A stretch of 15,401 nucleotides of DNA, taken from an uncultured Clostridia bacterium (GTDB taxonomy: Bacteria > Bacillota > Clostridia > Peptostreptococcales > Anaerovoracaceae). The position numbers were made by a program, and so were the translations under genes. Positions 11,691-14,769 of the stretch are shown here, piece after piece (within the stretch, counting starts at the first letter, position 1; each line of letters starts with the position of its first letter). The notes below the pieces were generated by a model that had not been told where the DNA came from, ran no database searches, and saw only the letters and a program-made list of their open reading frames with translations. The stretch is from contig CAKQNZ010000038.1 in the NCBI GenBank assembly GCA_934255435.1, forward strand, positions 1 to 15,401. Reading direction: 5' to 3'.

Positions 11691-11720
11691 CCGAATAAAA
11701 AGCAGGTAATAAATCCACTT

Positions 11721-11766
11721 CTCCTGTCAATACTACATTATGTAAGTTTTGGCAGGAGGTTTTTTT
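11721..11766 (+). terminator. Terminator-like hairpin that contains the ribosome binding site of the next gene
   Basis: CTCCTGTCA (11721-11729) pairs with TGGCAGGAG (11750-11758), with one G-T pair, across a 20-nt loop, and is followed by seven T's (11760-11766) directly abutting the ATG at 11767. The right arm contains the AGGAGG ribosome binding site (11754-11759). The structure could therefore end hpt transcription, hide the ribosome binding site, or both. An upstream GCAGG (11702-11706) can pair with CCTGT (11723-11727) and so break the hairpin. The loop contains the near-palindrome TACATTATGTA (11734-11744). Confidence 0.6.
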
Positions 11767-12720
11767 ATGCTTGCAGGATTACCGAGAGGATATTTTTATT
11801 ACAATTATTCAGAGTTCATGGATACGCTGTTCGATTGTACCGATGTGGAGATCAAAGCCGGTCCCGAAAACTGCGATGATATACTGAAGCGAGGAAGCAG
11901 ACTGACAGCAGATGAAGCATGTCTGCCAGTAAGACTTTTTGCAGGGCAGATAGATGCGATGCAGGGGCACTTCGACAGGATACTGATACCCAGGATAATG
12001 AAAGATGCAGGAGGTTCGTGGCTGTGTCCGAAGCTCCTGGGCATACCGGAGCTTTCAGGTGCATCCTTCATAGAAAGCAGCATGTATATAACCGATCCTG
12101 TGTATTTCAACAGACCAGAAGAAAGCTGCAGGATATTCAGGGATATGGGAAGATCTTTTGGCGTAGATAAGAAAAAAATAACAGCGAATTTCAAGAAAGC
12201 ATATCGCAGTCTTAAGGACATATCAGCAGGACGGAGGCCGATCCATATAGAAGCCGGCAATGAATTCATGCCACCGGTACCAGGACCGGGAGAGATAGTC
12301 CTGCCCTGCACAAAAAAAGTGCTGCTGTCCGGACACTGTTACAATGTGTTCGACCGTTTTGCAAATGGTAATATAGTACGTATGCTTGATGATATGGGCG
12401 TCGGAGTCGTCACAGAAAAAGATGCTGCATGCCGCTCGGCATACAGAGCTTCATGCCAGGCAGGTATCATGAAGAAACCTTTCTGGGAGGCTTTTTCGAG
12501 GATATACGGCACTGTGATGAGTCTTATGGATGAAATCGATGGAATAATATACCTGTCATCATTTTCATGCGGAATAGATCCGTTCATAATAGAAATGATC
12601 CGCAAACGTACAGGAAATATGCCGTTCATGATACTGAAACTCGATGAACACAAAGGTGATGCAGGCGTTGAGACACGCATCGAAGCCTTTGTCGATATGC
12701 TTGGAAGAAGGTGCGGCTGA
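11767..12720 (+). CDS. 2-hydroxyacyl-CoA dehydratase-like protein, DUF2229/COG3580 type (first of tandem pair)
   Basis: A 317-residue soluble protein that I assign to the group annotated as acyl-CoA dehydratase activase-related (DUF2229). Visible features are the N-terminal LPRGYFYYNY, the RGSRLTADEACLP segment with Cys52, ILIPR followed by WLCPK with Cys87, and SCGIDPF with Cys268. It closes with DEHKGDAGVETRIEAFVDML, a hallmark of this superfamily. The three cysteines in this arrangement are candidate iron-sulfur ligands. The substrate is unknown; homologous systems eliminate water from 2-hydroxyacyl-CoAs or handle related low-potential chemistry. The ATG at 11767 is chosen over the upstream TTG (11749) because AGGAGG is placed seven bases before it. 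The stop overlaps the next start as TGATG. No signal peptide or membrane segment is evident. Confidence 0.8.
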   Translation: MLAGLPRGYFYYNYSEFMDTLFDCTDVEIKAGPENCDDILKRGSRLTADEACLPVRLFAGQIDAMQGHFDRILIPRIMKDAGGSWLCPKLLGIPELSGASFIESSMYITDPVYFNRPEESCRIFRDMGRSFGVDKKKITANFKKAYRSLKDISAGRRPIHIEAGNEFMPPVPGPGEIVLPCTKKVLLSGHCYNVFDRFANGNIVRMLDDMGVGVVTEKDAACRSAYRASCQAGIMKKPFWEAFSRIYGTVMSLMDEIDGIIYLSSFSCGIDPFIIEMIRKRTGNMPFMILKLDEHKGDAGVETRIEAFVDMLGRRCG

Positions 12721-13871
12721 TGGTATTCACATTTCCAGTATTCGGATCTCTGAAATATATAATTCCGAAGATAATGGATGAGTTCGGAGTCGAATATGTG
12801 CTGCCGCATCAGGGTGAGGATACGCTGAGAAAAGGAAGCAGACTGTCTCCGGAGGAGATGTGTCTGCCCTTCAAATATATGCTCGGCGGTCTGGTGGAAG
12901 CATACGAATGCGGTGCAGATACAGTCATCATGCTATCGACTATCGGACCATGTAGGCTTGGAGAGTATGGAGAGCTTATGTCAGTCGTACTTGACAATGC
13001 AGGTTACAGGTACAAGTGGATAATGCTGGACCCTCCGTCAGAGACGGGACTCATCGAACTTCTGAGGCGTATAAATAAAATAACCAGTGCAGGCGGATAT
13101 TCAGGGAAAGTCAGGGTGCTGGGCGTGGTTTTCAAAGCACTGGTTTTGCTTTACAGTTTTGAAAAAACAGAGAGGCATCTGCTGAAAAAAGCCGGATATC
13201 TCAAAGCGCCGCAGGAAGCTGTAAGGCTTATGGCAAGCCTTGAACGGGATATCAGTGGTGCAGACTGCATCGATGACTGCAGGAAAGCGATAAGGAAAAT
13301 CAGAAAATCATCAGGGCTCTTAAAAAAATCAGTAGATGTTGCCCCTGTCAAGGTGATGGTGACTGGCGAGATATATACATCAGTGGAGAGCAGCGCCAAT
13401 ATGAATATAGAAAAACACCTGGCGGCTCAGGGATGCAGTGTGATAAGATGCATAGACATAACCTGGTGGATGAAACAGACATTAAGCCATATTGCAGATT
13501 CACTTATTACTGTAAGGCTTTTTCACAGGTTAAAGAGGAAAATATGCAGTATAGAAGGTATTCCATGTGGTATAGGAGGCTACGGCCGGGAGACTGTGGA
13601 TATGATAGTCAGATCTGCAGGCCGGGTAGATGGAGTGATAAAAATGATGCCCTCCGGATGTATGCCGGAGATCGTTGCAAAAGCATATTGTGAGAATCGA
13701 GAAGGTCGGGATCATGTACCGGTACTGAATCTCATTTTTGATGAGATGTATGGCGATGCAGGTTATGAAACGAGGATCGAAGCATTCACAGATATGCTGG
13801 AGAGGAGAAAGAATGTACTGGCTGGGAATAGACATAGGCTCCATAAGCACAGATCTTGTTGTGACAGATAG
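12720..13871 (+). CDS. 2-hydroxyacyl-CoA dehydratase-like protein, COG3581 type (second of tandem pair)
   Basis: A 383-residue soluble protein of the dehydratase D-component superfamily, distantly paralogous to the preceding gene. Features: the N-terminal FPVFGSLKYIIPK, KGSRLSPEEMCLPFK with Cys48, the segment IMLSTIGPCRLGEYGE with Cys78, GEIYTSVESSANMNIEKHL (216-234), and MPSGCMPEIV with Cys314. It ends in DEMYGDAGYETRIEAFTDML as in its neighbour. The three conserved cysteines suggest an iron-sulfur cluster. The ATG at 12720 shares one base with the previous stop (TGATG) and has AAGG eight bases upstream, so translational coupling is likely; a GTG at 12711 is the alternative start. After the superfamily's usual end the frame continues about 20 residues (NVLAGNRHRLHKHRSCCDR) and overlaps the activase gene by 59 bases. 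The substrate cannot be told from sequence. Confidence 0.8.
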   Translation: MVFTFPVFGSLKYIIPKIMDEFGVEYVLPHQGEDTLRKGSRLSPEEMCLPFKYMLGGLVEAYECGADTVIMLSTIGPCRLGEYGELMSVVLDNAGYRYKWIMLDPPSETGLIELLRRINKITSAGGYSGKVRVLGVVFKALVLLYSFEKTERHLLKKAGYLKAPQEAVRLMASLERDISGADCIDDCRKAIRKIRKSSGLLKKSVDVAPVKVMVTGEIYTSVESSANMNIEKHLAAQGCSVIRCIDITWWMKQTLSHIADSLITVRLFHRLKRKICSIEGIPCGIGGYGRETVDMIVRSAGRVDGVIKMMPSGCMPEIVAKAYCENREGRDHVPVLNLIFDEMYGDAGYETRIEAFTDMLERRKNVLAGNRHRLHKHRSCCDR

Positions 13872-14769
13872 TAATTTCAAAGTAATAAAAAAACTCTATC
13901 TGAAAACGAAAGGACGACCTCTTGATGCAGTCAGAAAAGGTCTGAGCGTGCTGGGCGGATACTTTGAAGATGGAGACATAGGTGGCGTTGGCGTTACAGG
14001 TAGCGGCAGGATGCTGGGAGGAGCCCTGGCAGGTGCTGATGTCATCAAAAATGAAATAACCGCACATGCCAGGGCGGTATCACTGACAGATCCGGACGTA
14101 CGGACCGTCATAGAGATCGGTGGGCAGGATTCAAAGCTCATACTTATGAGAGATGGATTCGTTGAAGACTTTGCGATGAACACAGTATGTGCGGCTGGAA
14201 CAGGGTCGTTCCTCGATCGGCAGGCAGCACGTATGGGTATATCAGTTGAAGAACTGTGAAGGATATCAGCAGAAACCGATAAATACGTCAACATTGCAGG
14301 GAGATGTGCAGTATTTGCAGAGTCAGATATGATCCATAAGCAGCAGAAAGGCGCCGGGGAAGCAGAACTTATGGCAGGAATGTGCAGGGCACTGGCTCTG
14401 TCATTCCTGTCAAATGTCGCAAAAGGAAAGAAAATAGAGCCAAAGATATGTTTTCAGGGTGGTGTGGCGTCGAATCTCGGTATGAAAAAAGCTTTTGAGG
14501 ATATTCTGGGGTATGAAGTGTTCATTCCAGAGGAGCATGAAGTCATGGGAGCACTGGGAGTCGCAGTGCTGGCATGTGAAAAGTCTGCAGGAAAAACGAA
14601 TTTCAGAGGGTTCGACATCGCAGGCAGGACTCTTATGCTTGAAGAAAAGAGATGTGGGTTATGTGAAAACAACTGCAGCGTTATAAAGATCACGGAAGAA
14701 AACAGTATAATTGGATATGCTGGAGATATATGCGGCAGATATACAGGAGCTGCATCAGGAATGCTTTGA
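13813..14769 (+). pseudogene. Acyl-CoA dehydratase activase (BadF/BcrA/HgdC family), interrupted by an in-frame TGA
   Basis: An ASKHA-fold ATPase of 318 codons that would drive an electron into the dehydratase at the cost of ATP. Visible are the phosphate-1 motif LGIDIGSISTDLV (4-16), VTGSGRMLGG, the phosphate-2 motif IEIGGQDSK, the cluster motif CAAGTGSFLD with Cys126, and GRCAVFAESDMI with Cys165. The 39-residue spacing equals that of the [4Fe-4S] ligands Cys127/Cys166 in Acidaminococcus HgdC. Codon 149 (14257-14259) is TGA, between the two cysteines; the frame is otherwise open and conserved to the TAA-free end at a TGA (14767-14769). A C-terminal extension has Cys281, 284, 288 and 307. 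ATG at 13813 follows GGAGAGGAG and overlaps the preceding gene by 59 bases. A fragment restarting at 14329 would lack both cluster cysteines. Nonsense mutation or sequence error is favoured; recoding is less likely. Confidence 0.85.

Follow-up and report, generated by a model that had tools for sequence, protein, structure and literature searches.

What does a single in-frame TGA signify in an otherwise open activase gene, when it falls between the codons of the two cysteines expected to hold the iron-sulfur cluster of the enzyme? The question arises in a window of 15,401 nucleotides (the window being the whole stretch of DNA analysed), in which two dehydratase-like genes are followed by an activase frame. 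The TGA is probably a recent nonsense mutation that has turned this gene of a Clostridia-type anaerobe into an early pseudogene and removed the set's own activator.

The interrupted activase frame

The activase frame (13813..14769, plus strand), recognized by profile matches and by alignment with HgdC, starts with the ATG at 13813, meets the TGA at 14257-14259 (codon 149, plus strand) and is then open until the TGA at 14767-14769, with 318 sense positions if codon 149 is included. Neither a second internal stop nor a frameshift was found between 13813 and 14769, and the TGA at codon 149 is the only internal stop in the 15 genes of the window, which were delimited by hand and comprise 4,720 codons. 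In the alignment with HgdC (PDB 1hux), on whose printed form the residue numbers were counted by hand, Cys126 (codon 14188..14190, plus strand) corresponds to HgdC Cys127 and Cys165 (codon 14305..14307, plus strand) to HgdC Cys166; the two positions are cysteine in 110/111 and 111/111 relative loci, respectively. The first-pass annotation, which had reported one TGA at codon 149 of a frame otherwise open to codon 318, together with this pairing of cysteines, was correct on both points. The location of the stop between the two ligands is in itself unremarkable, because 38 of the 318 codons lie there.

Each half of the interrupted frame passes the PF01869 cut-off of 31.5 bits on its own (84.2 and 59.8 bits), as does the intact relative P0002. 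With TIGR00241 (cut-off 125.4), P0002 reaches 174, while the window halves taken alone score 98.2 and 62.7 and stay below. The proposed assignment to the HgdC-type activases is supported by the former profile for each half and by the latter for P0002, which aligns with HgdC (1hux) over residues 1-259. According to a review (PMC11574389), an activase monomer contributes two cysteines to a [4Fe-4S] cluster at the dimer interface, and for the intact form of the window activase a homodimer with a bridging [4Fe-4S] cluster and ATPase activity would be predicted.

As it stands, the gene places the codons of these two cysteines on either side of the TGA and not within one polypeptide. Between the TGA and the Cys165 codon there is no ATG, GTG or TTG in frame; only ATA at 14263 and ATT at 14293 precede the first such codon found in a start-codon scan of the frame, the ATG at 14329..14331 (plus strand, residue 173). 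Since this ATG lies 3' of the Cys165 codon, no product from a common start holds both cysteines, and the earlier statement that neither fragment could hold the cluster is upheld. A division into two separate genes was rejected, as the piece from ATG 14329 lacks Cys165, and a search with it gave only seven relatives (44-53% identity), its own sequence not among them. Relative to its intact homologues the frame is interrupted, as in a pseudogene.

Codon 149 and constraint among the relatives

A search with the X-marked frame scored at least 8,000 candidates, the best 120 of which were examined; together with the query they yielded 113 proteins of 300-335 residues, or 112 once the query is excluded. 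P0002, the closest among the matches listed, has 318 residues, is 95% identical and intact, and carries Gly149. The 112 full-length proteins from these best 120 have Gly (98) or Ser (14) at residue 149; the 111 relative loci encode Gly in 104 cases, Ser in six and Ala in one, with neither a stop nor a cysteine in any of the 111 loci and no cysteine in the 112 proteins. The loci comprise the best 80 from genome contigs (of at least 80 matches) and 31 from another genome source; L081-L084 were excluded as duplicates or as a long activase-like protein, G192 and G291 are counted twice, and the sources may overlap further. Alignment of close relatives thus bears out the glycine that had been expected at this codon. 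With 132/378 occurrences, GGA leads the four Gly codons of the window, which makes an origin of the TGA from it by a one-base change plausible.

A stop at this codon was also sought in other copies. A search with the N-terminal half gave 2,595 matches past the E-value, and among the best 120 examined two in addition to the window product itself, P0230 and P0236, end exactly one residue short of column 149. A recurrent stop at codon 149 was nevertheless rejected and the coincidence taken as chance: the aligned ends in that sample are spread from 131 to 313, and contig ends and stops are indistinguishable from the protein alone. One family member, genome G273 (locus L110), has an internal TAA of its own after FAESDLVH, at about codon 176 of the window frame. 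Here the activase gene has suffered a nonsense mutation of independent origin, placed past both cysteines. No other internal stop was found across the 36 family copies of the activase, 30 of them having been read directly and the other six being reported stop-free. Two further loci flagged with a stop, L085 (G192) and L091 (G109), showed no internal stop on reading; the frame simply ends.

Comparison of the X-marked frame with P0002 gives 8/148 differences before the TGA and 7/169 after it (Fisher p 0.61), and columns that are at least 98% invariant are kept at 60/60 positions before the TGA and 49/50 after it. The exception is Ser152, three codons past the TGA, where Ala stands in 112/112 proteins and in 107 of the 111 loci, two of the loci having Ser. 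Phe198 departs from the usual Tyr (108/111 loci), and P0002 likewise has Phe. The earlier description of the downstream sequence as undecayed is therefore about right, with Ser152, which hints at relaxed constraint, as a small counterpoint.

The dehydratase-like partners and the spread of the set

The two genes before the activase are both intact. Protein A (11767..12720, plus strand; 317 residues) exceeds the cut-off for PF09989 (DUF2229) and falls below that for PF06050 (HGD-D), and protein B (12720..13871, plus strand; a frame of 383 residues) falls below both; the HGD-D scores of the pair are 25.5 and 26.1 bits, short of the curated cut-off of 28.4. The conserved cysteines 52, 87 and 268 of protein A and 48, 78 and 314 of protein B are kept in the window and, by analogy with PMC11574389, the three in each partner may serve as ligands. 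Among the near-invariant columns, derived from loci in which A was matched in 97/111 and B in 106/111 cases, only 1/28 differs in protein A (Arg for Lys at 56) and 0/31 in protein B. Because both the partner proteins and the frame past the TGA show so little decay, the stop, if real, is young. The frame of protein B overlaps the activase gene by 59 bases (13813-13871). In G001 and G192, too, the matches of B and of the activase overlap, so the arrangement seems to be a usual overlap of adjacent genes.

Of the 80 best genome-contig loci, 74 have both partner genes ahead of the activase; the remaining six gave no match to protein A on the stretch covered. The wider distribution was followed in 296 genomes of the family that includes G001, from which the top-scoring genome-contig locus (L001) comes. 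Some activase match occurs in 275/296, and a close one, defined by E below 1e-70, in 36/296, with G120 (2.3e-56) and G050 (6.5e-54) not counted. Protein B (E below 1e-20) was found in 35 family genomes, all of them among the 36 with a close activase; the sole genome of these without B is G136, whose activase lies at a contig edge. The pair is thus normally accompanied by its own activase (35/35 sampled family genomes with B), in keeping with the earlier suggestion that the two-gene set of the window would lack its own activator.

Judged by Lon identity, the window probably belongs in or beside the genus of G192 (49 genomes), with 85-88% to G001, G002, G192, G291, G164, G284, G226 and G129 and 78-82% to the 14 other genus members compared; the window lon gene had no match among plasmid records. 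A close activase occurs in 4/49 sampled genus genomes (G001, G002, G192 and G291), so that the three-gene set is accessory in the genus, and 39/49 have an open frame of at least 1,000 residues with activase-like matches of about 30% identity. In G001, lon-engB-hpt is followed by a block of further genes, then by the set and a folate transporter gene; in G192 and G291 hpt and the set share one contig, and in G164, G284 and G129 hpt and the folate transporter gene are present with no set between them. The interval between hpt and the set spans 11691-11766 in the window. At this place G192 (L128, 7450-14035) carries a block, some 6.6 kb long, which is absent from the window and encodes a phosphate propanoyltransferase and PLD-like, amidohydrolase and polysaccharide-flippase-like proteins. 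In a Lon tree of 25 sequences the set-less G226, G284, G164 and G129 form one clade (0.98) and a larger set-less group stands separately (0.63; 0.97 without G070 and G212), with the other backbone nodes between 0.06 and 0.83. This suggests more than one loss of the set, in a number that the poorly supported Lon backbone leaves uncountable.

Origin of the stop and likeness to known systems

If the stop is a nonsense mutation, translation would end after 148 residues, leaving the ATPase domain halved, and the two cluster cysteines of each monomer would never come together in one chain. Without its ATP-driven electron donor the dehydratase-like pair would stay unreduced and the set would be switched off, except where a second activase encoded elsewhere in the genome, or readthrough of the UGA at a low level, came to its aid. 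The locus would then represent an early stage of loss, the end state of which is the lack of the set, as in most sampled relatives. Several observations count in favor of this reading: a frame that is open but for one stop; the intact P0002 with its Gly149 and the lack of any stop at this position in the 111 loci; the internal TAA of G273 in the same gene; and the presence of the set in only 4/49 genus and 36/296 family genomes, along with its absence between hpt and the transporter gene in G164, G284 and G129. In-frame stops are moreover described as widespread in bacterial genes in the available text of Belinky et al. 2021 (PMC7918605), which points the same way. The protein collection contains the exact 148-residue truncated product, a single sequence present on three contigs of which the longest has 15,401 bases like the window; this argues for a real stop and against an error confined to a single contig. 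No separate protein corresponding to the piece past the TGA turned up there. What counts against a nonsense mutation is the lack of clear decay past the TGA, the constant company of protein B and a close activase, which would make loss of the activase alone unusual or very young, the possibility that the three contigs derive from the same reads, and the weak Lon backbone.

The main rival holds that the TGA is a consensus error of sequencing or assembly and that the gene of the organism is intact. Such an error would leave the rest of the trio looking intact, as it does, and would be shared by no relative, as is the case among the 111 loci; codon 152, nine bases further on, also departs from a near-invariant residue, as if two errors had fallen in one poor stretch. 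Set against this, the exact truncated product recurs on three contigs, the other 14 genes of the window are without internal stop, and Ser152 does occur elsewhere (2/111 loci), so that an error, while it deserves serious attention, appears rather unlikely. The available text of PMC7918605 allows that a substantial fraction of in-frame stops may be artefacts, adding that shared ones tend to persist only briefly and that many are perhaps read through.

Lower still stands the proposal that the stop is real and tolerated, a near-cognate tRNA reading through the UGA at a low level and so supplying some complete activase, which would make the gene a knocked-down allele and not a dead one. Past the TGA the frame resembles P0002 no less closely than before it; little activase might do, given that a review (PMC11574389) credits a single activation with thousands of turnovers in the known 2-hydroxyacyl-CoA dehydratases; and the argument of PMC7918605, in the portion available, that many bacterial in-frame stops are read through lends it some general backing. 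The stop is nonetheless confined to one sequence type, no special RNA fold accompanies it, and Ser152 hints at relaxed constraint, all of which makes tolerated readthrough improbable. It is a long shot that the UGA is, beyond this, a selected low-expression switch, by which rare readthrough, sufficient because one activation serves many turnovers, would arm the pair and throttle a costly low-potential ATPase at translation.

Programmed use of the TGA, as selenocysteine or as a sense codon, is the least credible reading: the frame is open on both sides of the TGA and SelA exceeds its cut-off in 3/49 genus genomes (G226, G281 and G307, with a fourth below cut-off), but the four genus genomes that carry the set (G001, G002, G192 and G291) gave no SelA, the relatives examined (112 proteins, 111 loci) have no Cys at 149, and the RNA around and past the TGA folds no better than shuffled sequences (z 0.24, 0.25 and -0.27 for three stretches) and has no Rfam match past the TGA at E up to 1. 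Selenocysteine was rejected for the missing Cys at 149, SECIS-like fold and Rfam match, and a sense codon because TGA terminates 3/15 window genes, the activase among them, and is absent inside the others, the 4,720 codons containing it internally just once. Of the three origins first put forward for the stop, recoding thus finds no support, and recent mutation and sequencing error both remain.

Should the stop be real, the strain would offer a naturally occurring case of a widespread three-gene set deprived of its activator, and comparison with the intact relative of 95% identity could show the role of the set. Otherwise the case would have little significance, single in-frame stops in accessory genes being common in bacteria. 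A survey of the literature by titles and listings found no functional study of the set (dehydratase-like A and B with the activase), and the available part of PMC13092985 contains nothing on this lineage.

Among characterized systems, the closest likeness is to the HgdC/HadI activases ("Archerases"; PDB 1hux and 4eht; PF01869, TIGR00241), with which the fold is shared by sequence over residues 1-259 of P0002 and both cluster cysteines are in register with the window frame, whereas the window gene is broken by the TGA. The 318-residue type differs from HgdC further in a C-terminal extension beyond the matched part, in which Cys281, Cys284, Cys288 and Cys307 (residues 281-307, window 14653-14733) are each conserved in 111/111 loci; these four cysteines could possibly form a second metal site, for which they are candidates. 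As with the 2-hydroxyacyl-CoA dehydratase component D (PF06050) and DUF2229 proteins, the window encodes two related proteins just 5' of the activase with three conserved cysteines each, but its HGD-D matches lie below the curated cut-off. Like the genes described in the available text of PMC7918605, the activase of the window looks like a gene in every part of its frame but for a single in-frame stop; the large-scale part of that study deals with stops common to at least two species, whereas the stop of the window occurs in one sequence type only. Within what that text covers, the case fits the description given there and is not new in kind.
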